Shown here: one piece after another, positions 1,391-60,026 of the stretch
Position numbering within the stretch: the stretch's first letter is position 1
Layout: every line of letters starts with the position of its first letter
Origin: Clostridia bacterium
GTDB lineage: Bacteria; Bacillota; Clostridia; RGIG7378
NCBI GenBank assembly: GCA_017559445.1
Contig: JAFYSJ010000025.1
Location: 1-64,000, forward strand
DNA length: 64,000 nt
Direction: 5' to 3'
Notes under the pieces: model-generated
Told to the model about the DNA's origin: nothing
The model's database searches: none
Seen by the model: only the letters and a program-made list of their open reading frames with translations
Translations under genes and position numbers: made by a program

Positions 1391-1444
1391 AAACAAAAAA
1401 GCAAAAAGTGCCTAATCAATGGTCTCTCCCATCAATTAAGCACT
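1391..1444 (-). terminator. Intrinsic terminator of the dgt-yfbR-deacetylase operon
   Basis: Imperfect long hairpin (arms 1406-1421 and 1430-1444) followed on the minus strand by a T-rich tract. It lies beyond repeat array 1, so the array is inside the transcript. Between here and the valS promoter (1307-1390) I see only AT-rich sequence. Confidence 0.8.
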
Positions 1445-1460
1445 CAAAATCTAAATCTTC

Positions 1461-1645
1461 ACTAGCACCAACGGTGCGGCCTACTAGGACCGAAGGTCCG
1501 GTTCACTAGCGAGTGAAACGAGCGGATACTAGCAAGCTTTGCTTGCGGCCACTAGGACCGAAGGTCCGGCCTACTAGCGCAGCGGCTCACTAGCGCGATA
1601 GCGCGGCTACTAGCCGAAGGCGGCCACTAGCTCAGCGGCTCACTA
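1461..1645. repeat. ACTAG-hairpin array 1 (9 units)
   Basis: Nine units of 16-23 bases, each beginning ACTAG (1461, 1483, 1505, 1528, 1551, 1573, 1589, 1609, 1626) with a final ACTA at 1642-1645. Inserts in order: CACCAACGGTG; GACCGAAGGTC; the non-palindromic CGAGTGAAACGAG; CAAGCTTTGCTTG; GACCGAAGGTC; CGCAGCG; CGCGATAGCGCG; CCGAAGGCGG; CTCAGCGG. The array starts directly behind the deacetylase stop codon (TGA then TAG TGA on the minus strand) and ends 16 bases before the terminator hairpin, so it is a 3' UTR element. Confidence 0.95.
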
Positions 1646-4794: not shown

Positions 4795-4822
4795 CAAAAC
4801 AAAACCGAGGTTTCCCCCGGTT
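4795..4822 (-). terminator. Intrinsic terminator of the yebC-glmU-pth-mfd operon
   Basis: Hairpin with arms AACCG and CGGTT (4803-4822) followed on the minus strand by TTGTTTTGCTTT. It lies beyond repeat array 2. Confidence 0.85.
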
Positions 4823-4855: not shown

Positions 4856-4982
4856 ACTAGCGTAGCGGCTCACTAGCCGAAGGCGGCCTACTAGCAACGC
4901 AGTTGCGACTACTAGCGCAGCGGTTCACTAGCCGAAGGCGGCTCACTAGCGCAGCGGTCTACTAGCCGAAGGCGATCACTAG
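4856..4982. repeat. ACTAG-hairpin array 2 (7 units plus one inside the end of mfd)
   Basis: ACTAG at 4856, 4872, 4890, 4911, 4927, 4945, 4961 and 4978; a degenerate unit beginning ATTAG lies at about 4836. Inserts: CGTAGCG, CCGAAGGCGG, CAACGCAGTTG, CGCAGCG, CCGAAGGCGG, CGCAGCG, CCGAAGGCG. The last ACTAG (4978-4982) contains the mfd stop codon (4979-4981), and the next insert, GCAACGCAGTTTGC, is the coding sequence of the last Mfd residues. The array lies between the mfd stop and its terminator. Confidence 0.95.
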
Positions 4983-7900
4983 CAACGCAGTTTGCCCAAC
5001 AGTTCCTTCACCGCTCCAACTGCCACTGCATTGTCCATGGACACCTTAAGTCGTATGCTAGGACGCTCACTTGCGTTAAATGTAAGCTTATCGCCATACT
5101 CACCCACCAGCTGAAGTAATGCCTGAGGCTTAATCTTGCTACCCAAGTCATACTTCATCTCGGCATGGCCCTTTTCGATGTGAACCACAGTAAATCCACA
5201 TTCTGTTGCAAACGCCTTAACAAGAGCAACCTGAATAAGGTTTTCTGTTTCCTTAGGAACATCACCGAATCTATCGATCAGCTCATCCCTCATATCCATA
5301 GCCTCATCCTCGTTAGACAAGGATGCAATACGCTTGTAAATATCAAGCTTTGCGGAGTCGTTAGGCACATACTCTGGTGGAATGTATGCGTCGATAAGCA
5401 CCTCGATGGTTGCCTCCACCTTTTCCTGCTCTACAGGCTCTCCTGTTAACTCAGCAACAGCCTGGTTAAGCAACTTACAGTACATATCGTATCCAACAGA
5501 TGCCATGTGTCCATGCTGCTCAGGTCCCAAAACGTTACCTGCACCACGAATTTCCAAGTCTCGCAATGCAATTTTGTAACCTGCTCCGAACTCTGTGAAC
5601 TCCTTAATAGCACGGATACGAGCCTCTGCTGTTTCGTTAAGCACTTTATCTCTGCGATGCAAAATATATGCATATGCCAAGCGATTACTACGTCCTACTC
5701 TGCCTCTTATCTGATAAAGCTGAGCCAATCCCAATCGATCTGCATTCTCTACGATAATAGTATTAGCATTTGGATAATCCAAACCAGACTCAATAATTGT
5801 AGTAGAAACAAGAACGTTATACTCGTTGTTGTAGAAGCTGTGCATCTTCTCTTCCAGCTCCTTTTCGCTCATTTGTCCATGGGCAAATTCTACCTTTGCC
5901 TCAGGTACAAGCTTACGAATTTCCTCCGTTTTTTGCTCAATGTCTATTACTCTGTTGTACAGATAGAACACCTGTCCATCTCTGGCAAGCTCTCTGCAGA
6001 TTGCTTCCCTTACAACATCGTCATCCTGCTCCATTACGAATGTCTGTACTGGATATCTCTCCTCCGGTGGTTCCTCGATAATAGAAATATCTCTAATGCC
6101 ACTCATGGACATGTGGAGTGTTCTAGGAATTGGTGTGGCAGTCATAACCAAAGTATCTACATTTGGCTTTAGGGTCTTAATCCTTTCCTTGTCTGCTACG
6201 CCAAAACGCTGCTCTTCGTCGATTACAAAAAGTCCAAAGTCGGAGAACTTTACGTCCTTAGACAATATTCTATGTGTACCTACAAGGATATCAATCTCAC
6301 CCTTTTCGAGACGTGACAAAATATCTGCCTGCTGGGCCTTGTTCTTAAAACGGCTAAGGCTCTCGATGCGAATTGGATAGTCCTTCATTCTTCGCTCAAG
6401 CGATTCTGTCTGCTGCTGGCACAAAACTGTAGTTGGTACAAGGTATGCAACCTGCTTACCATCCATTACAGCCTTAAACATGGCTCTAGTGGCAACCTCT
6501 GTCTTGCCATAACCTACGTCACCGCAAAGAAGTCTGTCCATGATGCGCTCTGACTCCATGTCCTGTTTGATTTCCTTGATACAACGAAGCTGGTCCTCTG
6601 TCTCTACGAAATCAAACTTTTCCTCAAACTCTCTCTGCCAATCTGTGTCTGGTGAGAAAGCGTGTCCCTTGGTTGTTCTGCGCTTTTGGAACAGCAAAAT
6701 AAGCTCTGCTGCCAATTCCTTAAGGGATTCCTTAACCTTTGCCTTAGTCTTTTGCCACTCTAGGCCACCTAACTTGTTTACCTTGGGGCCACCGCCACCT
6801 GTACCAATGTATTTTTGGATAAGATCCAGTCTATCGGATGGCAAATAGAGCACGTCTGTGCCACTATACTTTACCTTGATATATTCTCTAGTTGTTTTGT
6901 CAATGGTCAGCTTTTCCAGACCCTGGTATATGCCGATACCGTGGATATTGTGTACAACGTAATCGCCAATGGAAAGCTCTGCGAAATCTGTAATTGACTT
7001 AGCATCCTTTGTCTTAGCCTTTGTGCCTGTGCGAACAGCCTTGCCTGTTAACTCCTTGTCAGTCAAAACAACCATTCTAGCCGCTGGATACTCATATCCA
7101 GAGCTAAGCTGTCCAACCAAAATTGTTACTTGTCCGACGATTGCATCAAAGTTGTACTCTCTGCGAATTGCAGCCGTAACTCCCTGTGCCTCAAACATGG
7201 ACTCCAAGGCCTTAGCCCTAGTTCCGCTATTTGCTACAACAATTACCCTATATTCTCTAGCACACCAATCCTTAATGTCGGAAATAAGCTGTGCTTCTCT
7301 GCCGGAATATGCTGTAAGCTGACGCATTGGAACGGAGAAAGCCTTAATATGCTGCTCGGATACAACAGAGTTAATAACCAAAGTGTCCTTGGACTCAATC
7401 TTAGTCAGAAGTTTATCCTTAGATAAAATATTTCCCTCTGCTGCTGGAAGTACGCTACCCTTTTCTCTAAGCACGCGAACAAGCTCACCATACTCCATAG
7501 CGTAGTTTGTAAATCTTTCGTATACCCTTGGCTTTTCGTCCAGTACAATCAAAGCATCCTTGTGGATGTAGTCAAAAAGGTCTGCATCCATGGTGGAAAT
7601 AAGCCTCAAGTATCTATCTACCGGACTGGTCCAACCAGATGTTTCGAATCTCTCGAAGTCGCTATGGATTGCCTCTTCTACCTTCTGAATACGCTCCTTG
7701 TAGTGAGAATCCTTGTGAGAGGATGCGTAAATGTTAAGCTCAGCCAATGCCTGTTCCTTAAGGCCACGTCTGTCCTCTGCTGTAAGGATAATGTCTGTGG
7801 CCGGCAAAATTGTAATGCTATCTACACTGTCAATGGATCGCTGTGTAAACCTATCGAAGTATCGAATTGTGTCGATATCGTCTCCCCAATACTCCAAACG

Positions 7901-8467
7901 GATTGGGTTATCTGCACCAACTGGGAAGATATCAACAATACCTCCACGGATGGCGAACTGACCCTGTCCTGAAACCTGTGGTTCTCTCACATATCCTGCT
8001 GTAACCAAGTCCATAACAAGCTGGTCTACAACCAAAGTCTCTCCTGAAGACAAATAAATCTCTGCACTCTTAAAGACATCTGGCCTTGGAAGCCTATGGA
8101 ACATGGCCTCAGGAGATGTGATTACAAATTGATATGCATTTTTAGAAATCTTGTCTAATGCTGCGATTCTGCTTCTAACATTATCTCTGGAGAAACCGTC
8201 CACGCTATGCATGAGGATTTCCTTAGACAAAAACAGACATGCCTCGTTGTCAAAGAACTTAAAGTCATCAAAAATACGCTTTGCAGCCAATTCGTTTGCT
8301 GCAACGTAAATGATTCTGCGGCCCAATGCCTTAGAAATTGCAAAGCAAATATGGGCCTTCTCCGTTAAGGAGGGCCCTATTAACGCTGCCTTTCCCTCTG
8401 TTTTGAGGGTCTGGACTACGCCAGTTATGGCAGTAGTATTCAAAATTGGCTCTACAAAAGCCTTCAT
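4979..8467 (-). CDS. mfd: Transcription-repair coupling factor
   Basis: DNA translocase that removes stalled RNA polymerase and recruits UvrA. 1162 residues, full family length. UvrB-like N-terminal modules run to about 470; the CarD-like RNA polymerase interaction domain is at about 495-555 (GDYVVHNIHGIGIYQG, YLPSDRL); the RecG-like helicase has Walker A GDVGYGKTE (649-657) and DEEQRFG (750-756); the TRCF C-terminal domain follows. The start lies three bases after the pth stop with a weak binding site, so translation is probably coupled. The last residues (L-R-C) and the TAG stop lie inside a unit of repeat array 2. Confidence 0.97.
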   Translation of the reverse strand: MKAFVEPILNTTAITGVVQTLKTEGKAALIGPSLTEKAHICFAISKALGRRIIYVAANELAAKRIFDDFKFFDNEACLFLSKEILMHSVDGFSRDNVRSRIAALDKISKNAYQFVITSPEAMFHRLPRPDVFKSAEIYLSSGETLVVDQLVMDLVTAGYVREPQVSGQGQFAIRGGIVDIFPVGADNPIRLEYWGDDIDTIRYFDRFTQRSIDSVDSITILPATDIILTAEDRRGLKEQALAELNIYASSHKDSHYKERIQKVEEAIHSDFERFETSGWTSPVDRYLRLISTMDADLFDYIHKDALIVLDEKPRVYERFTNYAMEYGELVRVLREKGSVLPAAEGNILSKDKLLTKIESKDTLVINSVVSEQHIKAFSVPMRQLTAYSGREAQLISDIKDWCAREYRVIVVANSGTRAKALESMFEAQGVTAAIRREYNFDAIVGQVTILVGQLSSGYEYPAARMVVLTDKELTGKAVRTGTKAKTKDAKSITDFAELSIGDYVVHNIHGIGIYQGLEKLTIDKTTREYIKVKYSGTDVLYLPSDRLDLIQKYIGTGGGGPKVNKLGGLEWQKTKAKVKESLKELAAELILLFQKRRTTKGHAFSPDTDWQREFEEKFDFVETEDQLRCIKEIKQDMESERIMDRLLCGDVGYGKTEVATRAMFKAVMDGKQVAYLVPTTVLCQQQTESLERRMKDYPIRIESLSRFKNKAQQADILSRLEKGEIDILVGTHRILSKDVKFSDFGLFVIDEEQRFGVADKERIKTLKPNVDTLVMTATPIPRTLHMSMSGIRDISIIEEPPEERYPVQTFVMEQDDDVVREAICRELARDGQVFYLYNRVIDIEQKTEEIRKLVPEAKVEFAHGQMSEKELEEKMHSFYNNEYNVLVSTTIIESGLDYPNANTIIVENADRLGLAQLYQIRGRVGRSNRLAYAYILHRRDKVLNETAEARIRAIKEFTEFGAGYKIALRDLEIRGAGNVLGPEQHGHMASVGYDMYCKLLNQAVAELTGEPVEQEKVEATIEVLIDAYIPPEYVPNDSAKLDIYKRIASLSNEDEAMDMRDELIDRFGDVPKETENLIQVALVKAFATECGFTVVHIEKGHAEMKYDLGSKIKPQALLQLVGEYGDKLTFNASERPSIRLKVSMDNAVAVGAVKELLGKLRC

Positions 8468-44117: not shown

Positions 44118-44146
44118 ATAAAAAGTCAGCGCCATATAACGCTGAC
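44118..44146 (-). terminator. Intrinsic terminator after the superoxide reductase transcript
   Basis: Stem GTCAGCG/CGCTGAC (44125-44146) followed by TTTTTATA on the minus strand. Repeat array 3 lies between it and the stop codon; 44147-44199 holds nothing I recognise. Confidence 0.85.
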
Positions 44147-44199
44147 CTATATAGCTATTTAATTATCCACCATGTAAATACTGGTGTCAATTCGTAATC

Positions 44200-44360
44200 A
44201 CTAGCGCGACAGCACGGCTACTAGCGCAGCGGTTCACTAGCGAGTGAAACGAGCGGATACTAGCCGAAGGCGGCTCACTAGCCGAAGGCGGTTCACTAGC
44301 ACCAACGGTGCGACCTACTAGCCGAAGGCGGCTCACTAGGACCGAAGGTCCGGCTCACTA
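44200..44360. repeat. ACTAG-hairpin array 3 (8 units)
   Basis: ACTAG at 44200, 44220, 44236, 44259, 44277, 44295, 44317 and 44335 with a final ACTA at 44357-44360, directly behind the TAA stop of the superoxide reductase gene (TAA TAG TGA on the minus strand). Inserts: CGCGACAGCACG (one base off palindrome), CGCAGCG, CGAGTGAAACGAG, CCGAAGGCGG twice, CACCAACGGTG, CCGAAGGCGG, GACCGAAGGTC. Confidence 0.95.
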
Positions 44361-44741
44361 TTAAATGTCTGCTTTCCAAAGACCGTGAAGATTGCAATAT
44401 GCGTATACAGCAACTGGCTTTTCATCAAAGAGGGAGAATGTTACAACTGGATCATCTCCAGGCTTAAGGCACTTGCGGTGTCCGCCTCTGTCTGTCTGAA
44501 GGTATACCCACTCAATGCTGTGCTCCTCTGTCATGGGATGAGCAACAGAACCAACCTCTACTCTAACAATATTCTCCAAAATAGAAACCACTGGAATATG
44601 CTTCTCATGGCTTGCCTCCACAACGCCAGCCTCAAGCTGGATCATCTTGGAACCGCAACAAACTACGGAAACACCAGAGCTCTTAACCATGCCTACGATA
44701 TTGCCACAATGAGGGCAGTAATAAAATCTGTTATCACACAT
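44361..44741 (-). CDS. dfx: Desulfoferrodoxin (superoxide reductase)
   Basis: Reduces superoxide to peroxide in anaerobes without making oxygen. 126 residues with both iron centres: Center I cysteines C9, C12, C28, C29 (YCPHCGN, VVCCGS) and Center II ligands H48, H68, H74, C116, H119, with the catalytic K47. Length and spacing are those of two-iron desulfoferrodoxins. Monocistronic between its own promoter and a terminator beyond repeat array 3; palindromes flank the promoter. Confidence 0.97.
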   Translation of the reverse strand: MCDNRFYYCPHCGNIVGMVKSSGVSVVCCGSKMIQLEAGVVEASHEKHIPVVSILENIVRVEVGSVAHPMTEEHSIEWVYLQTDRGGHRKCLKPGDDPVVTFSLFDEKPVAVYAYCNLHGLWKADI

Positions 44742-49975: not shown

Positions 49976-50823
49976 ATACAGGATTAATCCTAGGTGGTGT
50001 CGCAGGTCTTGCAGCCATAGGGGCAACAATTGGTTTAGTGACTCCTCGTCAGCTCTCTGTAAGCCACATAGAGTTAAGTACTCCTTTGCAGGGAAACACC
50101 TTTTTGCATATGTCAGACTACCACTATGAGCTACTTAGGGTTTCTCCTGACAAGCTCAAAAAGGCTATTTCCGACATCAGTCCCACTGCCATTTTGTTCA
50201 CAGGAGACCTTTTCTACAAGGCGCAAAATAGCACTTCTGCATTAAACCATTTTAAACAAATAGTTGGCGATATTCCCGTGATTATGTGCCTTGGAAATCA
50301 TGAATACAAGGCTTACCGAGTTGACACTCCTGACCCTGATGACCCACAGAATGTAGATGAATACATGTGCCGTGTTAAAGAAATGGGTTTTATCATTGGC
50401 AGAAATGAAATTGTTAACCAATTTGGGTATAACTTTGTTCTCTTGGACGATTTTAGAGAAAATCGTCATAATTTGGACAGCTATACCTCAACAATCCATG
50501 CTTTGCTCTCCTCTGTAGCGGGCACTCCCACAATTGTACTATGCCATAGTCCTGCTACTGCAGGCTTAATTGCCAAGCTACCCCTTGAAGAAAATGAGCG
50601 TCCCTCAATGGTCCTTTGTGGTCACTATCACGGAGGTCAGGTAGATTTACCTGGTCACCCAGAGTATTACCATTTCCGCTCCGAAATGAAACACCTTACT
50701 GGACATTTCCGTGGCCTTAAGGTCCACAACCACGTTCCAGTATATATTTCTAGAGGTTTAGGCTCCGTAGTTGTGCCAATTAGATTCGCCTCTACTCCCG
50801 AAATAACAGTTTTTAAAGCATAA
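49969..50823 (+). CDS. Membrane-anchored metallophosphoesterase (YkuE-like)
   Basis: Calcineurin-type phosphoesterase of 284 residues. I place the start at TTG 49969, eight bases after GAGG; upstream ATGs are in the wrong frame or lie before the promoter. Residues 4-24 form an anchor (TGLILGGVAGLAAIGATIGL). Metal-site motifs: SDYHYE, FTGDLFYK, LGNHEY, CHSP and CGHYHGGQVD. Substrate unknown. Its stop TAA is followed after five bases by repeat array 4. Confidence 0.87.
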   Translation: MTNTGLILGGVAGLAAIGATIGLVTPRQLSVSHIELSTPLQGNTFLHMSDYHYELLRVSPDKLKKAISDISPTAILFTGDLFYKAQNSTSALNHFKQIVGDIPVIMCLGNHEYKAYRVDTPDPDDPQNVDEYMCRVKEMGFIIGRNEIVNQFGYNFVLLDDFRENRHNLDSYTSTIHALLSSVAGTPTIVLCHSPATAGLIAKLPLEENERPSMVLCGHYHGGQVDLPGHPEYYHFRSEMKHLTGHFRGLKVHNHVPVYISRGLGSVVVPIRFASTPEITVFKA

Positions 50824-50828
50824 GCTTC

Positions 50829-51079
50829 ACTAGCGCGACAGCGCGTATACTAGCGCAGCGGCTCACTAGCGCAGCGAATACTAGCGTAGCGGTTCACTAG
50901 CGCGACAGCGCGTATACTAGCGTAGCGGCTCACTAGCGCGACAGCGCGTATACTAGCGCAGCGGCTCACTAGCGCGACAGCGCGTATACTAGCGTAGTGG
51001 CTCACTAGCGCGACAGCGCGTATACTAGCGTAGCGATTCACTAGCGCGACAGCGCGTATACTAGCGCAGCGGCTCACTA
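50829..51079. repeat. ACTAG-hairpin array 4 (14 units)
   Basis: ACTAG every 15-20 bases from 50829 to 51060, final ACTA 51076-51079. From 50896 it alternates almost perfectly between CGCGACAGCGCG (20-base unit) and CGYAGCG (16-base unit), giving a 36-base supra-repeat. It lies between the metallophosphoesterase stop and a bidirectional terminator. In the other four arrays the neighbouring gene is on the minus strand; here the array follows a plus-strand gene with its polarity unchanged. Confidence 0.95.
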
Positions 51080-51105
51080 AAAAAGGCGCCTCAAGCGCCT
51101 TTTTT
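51079..51105. terminator. Bidirectional intrinsic terminator
   Basis: AAAAAAGGCGC / GCGCCTTTTTT with a five-base loop, shared by the metallophosphoesterase gene and malQ; its A-run overlaps the last array separator. Confidence 0.93.
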
Positions 51106-51106
51106 C

Positions 51107-52606
51107 TCATCTCTTCGTTTCTTTTACAAGGTCCAAAATCTTATCTCTAAGAGCCTTTGTGTTATATCTTGGACTAACTCTCCATGTCCAATTACCCTGA
51201 GCCACTGAAGGAACATTCATTCTTCCCTGCTCATTTGTAAGCTGCAAATAATCCTGCAATGGAATAACTGCCAAGTTTGACTTGCTACTAAGTGCCAGCT
51301 GGATAGTAGCGTATGTAGCGCTCTGACCCTTCTTGCGTGGGCACTCTCTCTTAAATCTTGCAAGCACATCTCCTGTCAACTGGCTCGCCCATGACTTAGT
51401 GCAATCTGAGTCGTGGGAACCTGTGTAAACAACTGAGTTGCTATGTGGATATGTCTTAGGCAAGTACTCGCTGTTATCATCAAAGAAAGCAAACTGCAAA
51501 ACCTTCATGCCAGGGAATCCTGTGTCATCCAATAGTGCTCGCACATCCTCTGTAATGAATCCCAAGTCCTCTGCAATAATCTTTGCCTTAGGATACTTAT
51601 CCTTAATTGTGCGGAAAAGCTTAATGCCAGGTGCAGAAGCCCATTGTCCTCTCCTAGCATTCACATCACCAAATGGAATGTGATAATAACCTGCGAAACC
51701 TCTAAAATGATCGATTCTCAAAATGTCATACATTTTGAATGCATACTTAACTCTATCGCTCCACCAAGAGAAGTCCTGCTCCTCCATGAGCTCCCAATTG
51801 TAAATTGGGTTACCCCAAAGCTGTCCGTCTGGTGAGAAACCATCTGGTGGACATCCTGCCACGCATGTCGGGTTGTAATTCTCATCCAATAAGAACTGTT
51901 CAGGTGCTCTCCATACGTCCATAGAGTCATGTGCCACATAGATGGGCATATCTCCTACAATGACAATTTTATGGCTGTGGGCATAGTCCACAAGTGCCTG
52001 CCACTGTCTAAAGAACTCAAACTGAACCCACTTCCAGAATCCGCACTCCTCTGCGTATTCCTTAGCAAGCTTTCGAGCCTGCTCACAATCCTTATGCTCC
52101 TCTGGCCATGTGTACCAAGCGCAGTAATTGTGGCTAACCTTAAGGGCCATAAAGAGGGCATAATCCTCAATCCACTCCTTGTTCTTGCGAACAAAGCATG
52201 TGTACTCCTTGTAAAGGTCATGGTCCTTGTTAAATCTAGCATATGCCTTACGAAGCAAAACATATCTAGTATTAAAGAGCCATCCGTAATCTACCCTATC
52301 TGATGAATTCTGGTTCTCCTTAGCCTCATTTGAGGTCAACAAACCAACCTTAACCAACTGGTCAGGGTCAATAAAATAGGGATTACCAGCCACTGAAGCC
52401 GGTGACTGGTAAGGACTATCGCCATAAGATGTGGGGTTAAGTGGTAATACCTGCCATACTTTCTGGCTGGTCTCACTTAAGAAATCTATAAAATCGTAGG
52501 CGGCTTTACCAAAATTACCAATGCCATATGGAGATGGCAAACTGCTAATTGGCATCAAAATGCCGCACTTATGCTTAAAACCAAAATTATCCCTAGGTGT
52601 GCCCAT
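51107..52606 (-). CDS. malQ: 4-alpha-glucanotransferase (amylomaltase)
   Basis: GH77 disproportionating enzyme acting on malto-oligosaccharides or glycogen branches. 499 residues; SSLPSPYGIGNFGKAAYDFI at the start, IVGDMPIYVAHDSMDVW, the nucleophile region ILRIDHFRGF, the acid/base IIAEDLGFI and YTGSHDSDCTKSW are all typical. AAAGGAG lies five bases before the ATG. It follows pgi by 18 bases, joining glycogen/maltodextrin use to glycolysis. Confidence 0.96.
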   Translation of the reverse strand: MGTPRDNFGFKHKCGILMPISSLPSPYGIGNFGKAAYDFIDFLSETSQKVWQVLPLNPTSYGDSPYQSPASVAGNPYFIDPDQLVKVGLLTSNEAKENQNSSDRVDYGWLFNTRYVLLRKAYARFNKDHDLYKEYTCFVRKNKEWIEDYALFMALKVSHNYCAWYTWPEEHKDCEQARKLAKEYAEECGFWKWVQFEFFRQWQALVDYAHSHKIVIVGDMPIYVAHDSMDVWRAPEQFLLDENYNPTCVAGCPPDGFSPDGQLWGNPIYNWELMEEQDFSWWSDRVKYAFKMYDILRIDHFRGFAGYYHIPFGDVNARRGQWASAPGIKLFRTIKDKYPKAKIIAEDLGFITEDVRALLDDTGFPGMKVLQFAFFDDNSEYLPKTYPHSNSVVYTGSHDSDCTKSWASQLTGDVLARFKRECPRKKGQSATYATIQLALSSKSNLAVIPLQDYLQLTNEQGRMNVPSVAQGNWTWRVSPRYNTKALRDKILDLVKETKR

Positions 52607-54081: not shown

Positions 54082-54110
54082 AAAAAACGCCCAGCAAAAT
54101 GCCAGACGTT
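54082..54110 (-). terminator. Intrinsic terminator after the aspartate aminotransferase transcript
   Basis: Ten-base stem AACGTCTGGC/GCTGGGCGTT (three G-U pairs) followed by TTTTTTG on the minus strand. It lies beyond repeat array 5. With the promoter of pgi and the array this fills the 605-base gene-free stretch 53966-54570; 54111-54139 holds nothing else. Confidence 0.85.
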
Positions 54111-54139
54111 CATTATTTTAAGCAAAATTGTTGTTTTTC

Positions 54140-54573
54140 ACTAGCGCAGCGGCTCACTAGCAACGAAGTTGCGATCTACTAGCGCAGCGGCTCACTAGCA
54201 ACGTAGTTGCGGCCTACTAGCGTAGCGGCTCACTAGCGAGTGAAACGAGCGGATACTAGCAAGCTTTGCTTGCGGCTCACTAGCAACGAAGTTGCGATCT
54301 ACTAGCGTAGCGGCTCACTAACGAGCTTTGCTCGTGGCCTACTAGCGCGATAGCGCGGCTCACTAGCAACGTAGTTGCGGCCTACTAGCGCAGCGGCTCA
54401 CTAACGAGCTTTGCTCGTGGTTCACTAGCAACGAAGTTGCGATCTACTAGCGTAGCGGCTCACTAGCGAGTGAAACGAGCGGATACTAGCAAGCTTTGCT
54501 TGCGGCTCACTAACGAGCTTTGCTCGTGGTTCACTAGCAACGAAGTTGCGGCTACTAGCGCAGCGGCTCACTA
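54140..54573. repeat. ACTAG-hairpin array 5 (21 units, the longest)
   Basis: Units begin at 54140, 54156, 54178, 54194, 54216, 54232, 54255, 54279, 54301, 54317, 54341, 54362, 54384, 54400, 54424, 54446, 54462, 54485, 54509, 54533 and 54554; three (54317, 54400, 54509) have ACTAA followed by CGAGCTTTGCTCG. Other inserts are CGCAGCG/CGTAGCG, CAACGAAGTTG, CAACGTAGTTG, CGAGTGAAACGAG, CAAGCTTTGCTTG and CGCGATAGCGCG. The final ACTA (54570-54573) contains the stop codon of the aminotransferase gene. Confidence 0.96.
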
Positions 54574-55833
54574 AAAATTATATTTCTCATATGCTGCAAT
54601 GTTTGCGCAAAGGCAGAACACCTTCATTGCAACCTTAAGGTCCTGTACGGATACTGCAGATGGAGCAAGACGAATGTTGCTGTCCTGAGGATCCTTACCA
54701 TATGGATATGTGGAACCAGCATTTGTGAAGAACACGCCAGCCTTTGCTGCCATATCTACTACTCTAGCTGCACAGCCAGGCATTACGTCAACACTGATGA
54801 AGTAACCGCCTCTTGGAGAATTCCATGTAGCAACGTTGGAATTGCAAATTCCAGCCTTAAGTGTCTTAAGAACGCAGTCAAACTTAGGACGCATAATCTT
54901 AGCGTGCTGCATCATGAGCTTGTGAACATTCTCTGCATCCTTCAAGAACTCAACGTGCATCATCTGATTGATCTTGTCGTAGCCGATAGTTGCTGTATCG
55001 AACTGCTTAGCCAAGAAGTTAATGTTCTCTGGGCTAGCTGCAACTACTGCAATACCAGAACCTGCGAATGTAACCTTAGATGTGGACATGAATGTGTAAA
55101 CCATGTTGGGGTTACCAGCCTTGCGGCACTCCTCGATAATATCGAGAACCTTATCCTGCTTGTCCTCATAAAGGTGGTGCAAGCAATATGCGTTATCCCA
55201 GAAAATACGGAAGTTATCTGCTGCAGGCTTAAGGTTAGCCATACGCTTAACAACCTCGTCAGAGAATGTAATACCTGTTGGGTTAGAATACTGAGGAACT
55301 ACCCACATACCCTTAATAGTTGGGTCAGAGCTTACGAGCTCCTCGATAGTATCCATGTCTGGGCCATCTGCGTTCATCTTAACATTGATCATCTCAACGC
55401 CCAAATCCTCAGTGATTCTGAAGTGACGGTCATATCCTGGAACTGGACACAAGAACTTAACCTTAGGAGAATTAAGCCATCTCTCTCCACCCAATACGCC
55501 ACGGAGCAAGCAGTTTGCTACGATGTCGTACATAAGGTTAAGGGAGGAGTTACCACCTACATAAATGTTATCTGGTGTAAGACCAAGCAAATCTGCAAAA
55601 AGCTTTCTAGCCTCAGGAAGACCTGTTGGCAAACCGTAGTTACGGATATCTGCATTTGTTCCCTTTGCAATAAAGTCAGTTGGCTTGCACTTAAGCATAG
55701 CCTTAGAAAGGTTGAGCTGCTCTGTTGCAGGACGACCTCTACGAATGTCGATGTTTAAGCCCTTAGTCAGAATCTCGTTGTATTCCTGAACCATTGCCTC
55801 GTATGTCTTCTTAGAACAAATCTTATATCCCAT
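54571..55833 (-). CDS. Aspartate aminotransferase, Ic-type
   Basis: PLP enzyme predicted to exchange amino groups between aspartate and 2-oxoglutarate. 420 residues; the early block RGRPATEQLNLSKAML, GGNSSLNLMYD, PQYSNPTG, WDNAYCLHHL and the PLP lysine K253 in FMSTSKVTFAGSG fit the MocR-like Ic subgroup (PF12897) better than classical AspC. GGAG is five bases before the ATG. The stop TAG is part of the first separator of array 5. Confidence 0.9.
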   Translation of the reverse strand: MGYKICSKKTYEAMVQEYNEILTKGLNIDIRRGRPATEQLNLSKAMLKCKPTDFIAKGTNADIRNYGLPTGLPEARKLFADLLGLTPDNIYVGGNSSLNLMYDIVANCLLRGVLGGERWLNSPKVKFLCPVPGYDRHFRITEDLGVEMINVKMNADGPDMDTIEELVSSDPTIKGMWVVPQYSNPTGITFSDEVVKRMANLKPAADNFRIFWDNAYCLHHLYEDKQDKVLDIIEECRKAGNPNMVYTFMSTSKVTFAGSGIAVVAASPENINFLAKQFDTATIGYDKINQMMHVEFLKDAENVHKLMMQHAKIMRPKFDCVLKTLKAGICNSNVATWNSPRGGYFISVDVMPGCAARVVDMAAKAGVFFTNAGSTYPYGKDPQDSNIRLAPSAVSVQDLKVAMKVFCLCANIAAYEKYNF

Positions 55834-59684: not shown

Positions 59685-60026
59685 TTACAGTCTCTCCTTA
59701 ATCTTAGCAGCCTTACCAGATCTACCACGCAAGTAGTAAAGCTTAGCTCTGCGAACCTTACCTCTGCGAACAACCTTGATAGACTCAATTCTGGGGGAGT
59801 TGATTGGGAAAACTCTCTCTACGCCTACGCCAGATGCAATACGTCTAACTGTGATTGTCTCGTTGATACCGGAACCCTTACGAGCAATGAGAACGCCCTC
59901 ATATGCCTGAAGTCTCTCACGGTTGCCCTCAACGATCTTGCACATAATGTGAAGTGTGTCACCAATACCGAACTGTGGGATATCTGATCTCAACTGCTCA
60001 GCTTCAATTGCCTTAATGTAATCCAT
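59685..60026 (-). CDS. rplS: 50S ribosomal protein L19
   Basis: 113 residues, whole family length: [33 protein letters not shown] and [37 protein letters not shown] lies well before the ATG. Monocistronic between its own promoter and a hairpin. Codon use is strongly biased, as for other ribosomal genes. Confidence 0.97.

Follow-up and report, generated by a model that had tools for sequence, protein, structure and literature searches.

Arrays of ACTA-tagged mini-hairpins in a Clostridia genome, a candidate modular REP-like repeat family

Introduction

What kind of element are the five arrays of short, ACTAG-bearing hairpins that lie beside gene ends in a Clostridia bacterium, and what process could have built them there? 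In this study, we analysed these arrays in the window (the whole 64,000-nucleotide stretch of DNA under study, which is contig 33 of the 40-contig, 1.68-Mb host genome G000) and in the host and other genomes. The usual explanation for REP-like repeats is a RAYT transposase. The family described here is modular, has expanded in one species without a detectable RAYT, has strict head-to-tail polarity with starts at stop codons or terminator ends, and has a build that recurs in a distant phylum (Bacteroidota). Its arrays represent a good test case for how REP-like repeats arise, spread and choose gene 3' ends, and one that is testable by strain comparison.

Results

Five arrays beside gene ends

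The arrays of the window, all with ACTA on the plus strand, and the terminator-like sites near them are located as follows.

1461–1645, plus strand: array 1, 9 units, ending at the stop codon of a minus-strand gene for a polysaccharide deacetylase-family protein (1646–2863)
1406–1445, minus strand: terminator-like site past array 1
4856–4982, plus strand: array 2, 8 units, from which the last codons and TAG stop of mfd (4979–8467, minus strand) are derived
4803–4822, minus strand: terminator-like site past array 2
44200–44360, plus strand: array 3, 8 units, directly past the TAA of a minus-strand desulfoferrodoxin gene (44361–44741)
44123–44148, minus strand: terminator-like site past array 3
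50829–51079, plus strand: array 4, 14 units with a period of 36, flanked by the stop of a plus-strand gene (end at 50823) and the two-way terminator of a minus-strand gene (51107–52606)
51080–51105, no single strand: two-way terminator-like site (A-run/GGCGCCTCAAGCGCC/T-run), recognised from its sequence and abutting the right end of array 4
54140–54573, plus strand: array 5, 21 units, whose terminal ACTA gives the TAG stop to a minus-strand aminotransferase gene (54571–55833)
54085–54111, minus strand: terminator-like site past array 5

The arrays had been detected in a sequence-only reading, whose coordinates and count of about 60 units proved correct (9 + 8 + 8 + 14 + 21 = 60). That reading placed every array strictly between the last codon of a gene and its terminator, which is so for arrays 1, 2, 3 and 5, each with a minus-strand stop codon on one side and a terminator-like site 16–52 bases beyond the array, and is not so for array 4, which lies beyond the terminator of the minus-strand gene and before the stop of the convergent plus-strand gene. 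The five arrays together cover 1.8% of the window, in which ACTAG is under-represented (90 occurrences versus 137 expected, both strands), and more than half of those occurrences are inside the 1.2 kb that the arrays occupy. An Rfam search of the window at gathering scores identified two tRNAs only, with no RNA family match for the arrays. A two-copy 15-nt tandem repeat at 59742–59771 (CTTACCTCTGCGAAC) is unrelated to them.

A genome-wide family

The wider search suggested by the earlier reading revealed that the family is genome-wide. Three ACTAG spaced 8–24 nt apart were matched 540 times in the host genome, compared with 0–1 matches for a reversed control pattern, which shows that the order is not due to chance. 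Our array sample comprised the window and 40 further stretches chosen around listed arrays (41 stretches, 187 kb), and contained 53 arrays with 538 countable units, all found via one pattern and so possibly not representative of every array. Since the sampled stretches cover 381 of the 540 triple matches, the host genome is estimated to have ~75 arrays. The array analysis draws on one genome of the species, whose assembly is 96% complete and is broken by arrays, with the start of contig C9 and the ends of contigs C13, C23 and C27 falling inside them; as contig ends are often within arrays, genes inside long arrays may be missing from the assembly.

Units are ACTA-tagged DNA mini-hairpins

Each unit consists of ACTA, a hairpin that starts from the next base, and usually GG plus 1–3 bases. 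The hairpin begins exactly after ACTA in 503 of the 538 units, versus 133 in shuffled units. The sequence-only reading was right that the arrays have one grammar and a reused set of inserts; its constant part, however, is ACTA and not ACTAG, the G being the first base of the stem. Approximately 11 stem types were distinguished, which covary, are mixed within single arrays and have stems of 2–6 bp with loops of mostly 3 nt, in agreement with the roughly ten shuffled insert types described earlier. The main modules are GC-GNA-GC, GCC-GAA-GGC, GGC-GNA-GCC, GCAAC-GNA-GTTGC, GGACC-GAA-GGTCC, GCACC-AAC-GGTGC, GCGC-NNNN-GCGC, GCAAGC-YYY-GCTTGC and ACGAGC-NNN-GCTCGT, together with GCGAGTGAAACGAGC, GCGAATGCAATGAGC and GCGAACGAAGTGAGC. 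The latter three share a layout of GC, GA/AG, two covarying pairs and a GNA loop, and can pair fully only with tandem G.A/A.G pairs on the ACTA strand, the opposite strand having T.C mismatches.

A c(GNA)g loop is present in 280 units and c(GNNA)g in 36, and a further 40 units have tandem G.A with a GNA loop. The GNNA loops are not of the RNA-type GNRA, as their third base is a pyrimidine in nearly all. The d(GNA) triloop closed by a C-G pair is a known stable DNA motif, and the measured DNA hairpin GAACGCAGTTC melts at 68.9 C compared with 48.9 C after a swap of its closing pair (PMC5815330). The core of that hairpin, AACGCAGTT, is also the core of a common module in the host arrays.

There is good evidence, based on these loops and the three modules that need tandem G.A pairs, that the ACTA strand, as single-stranded DNA, seems to be the designed strand, and it is usually antisense (template) to the adjoining gene. 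This argument depends on loop identity and published melting data and not on computed energies, as in whole-array folding a DNA model (with parameters lacking special-loop terms) favoured the ACTA strand in 39 of 53 arrays and an RNA model favoured the sense strand in 48 of 53. Stem mutations did not favour G.U-tolerated changes for either strand (7 versus 6), and the two compensatory mutations counted within modules are too few to use. As a set, the units read like a natural catalogue of stable DNA mini-hairpins.

Order of units within arrays

Module matches were forward in 486 cases and reversed in none across the 53 arrays, so that units, up to 21 in number, are arranged head to tail only. 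From one unit to the next, the base that precedes ACTA switches between C and T in 295 of 463 steps; shuffles gave a mean of 219 and at most 252. Modules favour one linker phase, GCGAGTGAAACGAGC being flanked by a C-type linker and a T-type linker in 24 of 26 cases. Identical adjacent modules are depleted (no GCAAC pairs and no GCGC pairs), and simple slippage of units, which would not produce such depletion, was rejected. Blocks of three units common to different loci were found six times, versus 0.67 in shuffles (maximum 4), and blocks of four were also shared. This sharing is weaker than the raw counts suggest because some of the three-unit blocks are at contig ends and two of the three four-unit blocks join contig ends, perhaps of one locus split by the assembly (L055/L069). 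A CRISPR array, with identical repeats and unique spacers, was rejected as the inserts are a small reused set with none unique.

Right ends abut stop codons or T-tracts

Based on a simple codon-usage gene caller, 31 arrays are between tandem genes, seven between convergent genes and one between divergent genes. Of 34 right ends that face an antisense gene, 32 have the stop of that gene within 60 nt, compared with only 4 of 19 left ends for a same-strand stop (Fisher p 7e-8). In the sense of the gene, an array begins TAGTGA, and often this TAG or TGA is itself the gene's stop codon, or the stop codon lies immediately before it; TAG stops account for 16 of 34 at arrays and 8 of 46 elsewhere in the window (p 0.006). 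Comparison of C-termini with the sister species revealed that the L063 protein matches up to the array junction, with the same last residue, and that the mfd, L067, L072 and L053 proteins end within a few residues of the junction.

Five of the 32 arrays that abut an antisense gene lie past its terminator, starting right after the T-tract. Additionally, eleven arrays between tandem genes are oriented the opposite way, some of them immediately preceding a ribosome-binding site. The absence of arrays from 5' regions, as first described, was upheld in the window and not genome-wide, where several arrays (L047, L048 and L064 among them) run up to the promoter or ribosome-binding site of the following gene. 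The placement first described, at gene 3' ends, thus mostly holds in the window, and the sampled arrays have a clear polarity; the general rule is that the right end of an array abuts a stop codon or a T-tract, and not that arrays are always in a 3' UTR, because some are beyond the terminator or before gene starts. The flanking genes are ordinary and mostly housekeeping. A function via particular genes was rejected, as 50 flanking proteins had no common family beyond two pairs.

Distribution in other genomes

In the genus sister (G001, the only other genome of the genus compared), there were no triple ACTAG matches, and 398 genomes of the phylum had low or background numbers, apart from plain short-period ACTAG runs in a few; the family is absent from all of these. 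A strict-pattern scan of one genome per species found only two other records. One, in Alkalilimnicola, is a single match and probably chance. The other is a Muribaculaceae genome (Bacteroidota, buffalo rumen) with the strict pattern on two contigs, where short arrays have the same build with the linker CAA, in units such as ACTA-GC-GAA-GC-GGCAA and ACTA-GCGAGC-ATA-GCGAGC-GGCAA, the tandem G.A stems occurring again. Their right end abuts the stop of an antisense ORF in all four arrays inspected. No ACTA-hairpin arrays were present in the 148 Muribaculaceae family members searched, and the shared build would fit either transfer or an independent origin. A phage or plasmid origin was rejected, there being no array match in phages, plasmids or viral contigs.

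Several other repeats were observed. Plain (ACTAAAC)n or ACTANNC heptamer runs, which look like the joint between units without hairpins, occur near hairpin arrays.

L103, 592–680: heptamer run
L060, about 1644, reverse strand: heptamer run
L056, 1229: heptamer run
L039, 1061: heptamer run

A dispersed element of ~60 nt, CATTACTTTGGAACGACCCAAAGTAACCAAAGGTCGCCCGCTACTTCCGAAGCGCGGGAGGCACGG, is often beside arrays, and may predate them as one diverged copy is present in the genus sister (L154).

L040, 991: element copy
L041, 659: element copy
L043, 1059: element copy
L056, 1705, reverse strand: element copy
L060, 1302: element copy

The genus sister also has short repeats of other sequence (GAGGTAAGAGGTGAGAGGTGA; TACTTCTTGCTTCTTGCTTCT) directly past the stop codons of the orthologues of the genes neighbouring L053 and L067.

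Discussion

How the arrays may have arisen and spread

The best explanation of these results, to which we give about an even chance, is that the arrays are modular REP-like repeats acting at the DNA level, seeded at short joint matches and spread by copying via the shared joint, without a selected role. The linker (GG and a short pyrimidine stretch after the mini-hairpin) and ACTA would form a joint of ~7 nt. We infer that new arrays are seeded at short matches to this joint, mainly stop codons (the joint being TAGTGA in the gene's sense) and terminator T-tracts, and that arrays then grow and reshuffle as units or blocks are copied from other arrays through identical joints. The copying would probably take place at single-stranded hairpins, by template switching or recombination, while DNA is replicated. 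Arrays would be tolerated at gene 3' ends and so persist there. Copying through the joint would fix orientation, so the exclusive head-to-tail order is expected, and stop codons and T-tracts are natural seeds because the joint, read along the gene, includes TAG, TGA and TTTAG-like runs. Seeding via the joint would therefore explain the polarity without a role in RNA. A need for a stop alone would not, as CTAG has TAG on both strands. The spread of a mosaic repeat, put forward in the sequence-only reading, is supported by the shared grammar, shuffled inserts and some sharing of blocks between loci. Counted against this explanation are the rarity of identical neighbours, the better folding of the sense-strand RNA and the weakened block sharing. 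A route via reverse transcriptase was rejected, as the host has no match to PF00078.

The main rival is a lost or unassembled transposase. Possibly, the units are non-autonomous and were moved by a single-strand transposase (REP-associated Y1/RAYT or another HUH enzyme), with ACTA as the foot tetranucleotide read by the enzyme, as GTAG is in REPs. The design parallels REPs in its unpaired tetranucleotide 5' of the hairpin, covarying stems, supply of TAG stops and 3' placement (PMC3733652), the alternating linkers would fit an element made of two hairpins, and one Y1 transposase gene is present in the Muribaculaceae genome whose arrays share the build. However, a Y1 transposase (PF01797) was matched in neither the host (96% complete) nor the sister, units are head to tail only whereas RAYT-linked REPs also form inverted pairs, and in the Muribaculaceae genome the Y1 gene lies in a 3.3-kb locus without any ACTA hairpin unit. 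We consider this origin unlikely, and rejected the Y1 route for the host as assembled.

We regard as rather improbable that the arrays are functional 3'-UTR RNA elements, slowing translation termination or protecting mRNA 3' ends as reported for REPs near stops. Their orientation is fixed relative to the stop codon, four of the five window arrays are between stop and terminator, sense RNA folds well, and E. coli REPs ≤15 nt from a stop lower translation (as cited in PMC12306157). These points must be weighed against the five or more arrays that lie past a terminator with unchanged polarity, the three tandem G.A modules with T.C mismatches on the sense strand, the eleven arrays between tandem genes in the other orientation, flanking genes without a common function, and the absence of arrays from the sister species. 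The role at the mRNA 3' end suggested in the sequence-only reading is disfavoured by the structural rules of the ACTA strand, the arrays past terminators (5/32) and stem mutations without G.U bias.

Returning to processes at the DNA level, it is conceivable, but in our judgement quite improbable, that an unknown dedicated single-strand DNA process distinct from RAYT operates in two or more phyla, building arrays from a fixed library of very stable DNA mini-hairpins with polar seeding at stops and terminator ends. Very improbable is that the arrays are putative chromosomal sites bound by a topoisomerase or by nucleoid or replication factors and have been amplified as DNA elements, an idea put forward for BIMEs. 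Although the fixed joints are repeated with alternating linkers, and REPs and BIMEs are reported to bind several proteins (PMC2817692), both joints and stems are more variable than is typical of protein sites.

Comparison with known repeat families

No earlier description of an ACTA-hairpin family was found in a literature search that reached few subscription papers, in line with the earlier statement, also borne out by the Rfam search, that no exact named family is known with this build. Another family of the same phylum (L157 and genome G218) has dozens of (ACTAGCA)n heptamer arrays, which are similar in that ACTAG recurs, every 7 nt, in many arrays, and differ in having no hairpin modules between the heptamers. 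A further likeness is to the intergenic heptamer direct repeats TAACTGA of Beggiatoaceae, Cyanobacteria and Bacteroidetes, which are A/T-rich, 7 nt in length and present in numerous intergenic regions across scattered phyla (PMC4679880); the host joint NNCACTA has the same length, and plain ACTANNC runs lie next to arrays. However, the heptamer is another one, and TAACTGA repeats have no hairpins and in Beggiatoaceae are mostly upstream of start codons (PMC4679880), so that both unit and placement differ.

The closest known kind are the REPs (GTAG and CGTC superfamilies, RAYT/REPtrons) and BIMEs. REPs are likewise short hairpins that carry an unpaired tetranucleotide as an end tag and are divided into sub-types whose stems covary; they are mostly downstream of genes with tags often supplying a TAG stop and form tandem clusters, some families having no known transposase (PMC3733652). 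In the wide sense of the term, the host arrays share with REPs a high-copy, mostly intergenic palindromic hairpin, a location between tandem or convergent and rarely divergent genes, and a repeat end that gives a TAG stop to the neighbouring ORF. They differ from GTAG-type REPs in having ACTA at the hairpin end, stems of 2–6 bp compared with 6–9 bp in most GTAG REPs, and no Y1 transposase found, although a gap in the assembly could account for the latter; from CGTC-type REPs, which have a CGTC tag and loops of 4–5 nt, in their tag and mostly 3-nt loops; and from REPINs and BIMEs, whose unit is two inverted REPs, in having no reversed units. The text of PMC3733652 makes no mention of Firmicutes. 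Because tag, stem length, arrangement and transposase all differ, we refer to the arrays as REP-like and not as GTAG or CGTC REPs. With ~11 stem types mixed per array, head to tail only and with alternating linkers, they are best read as a modular REP-like repeat with a new build in one species of its genus.
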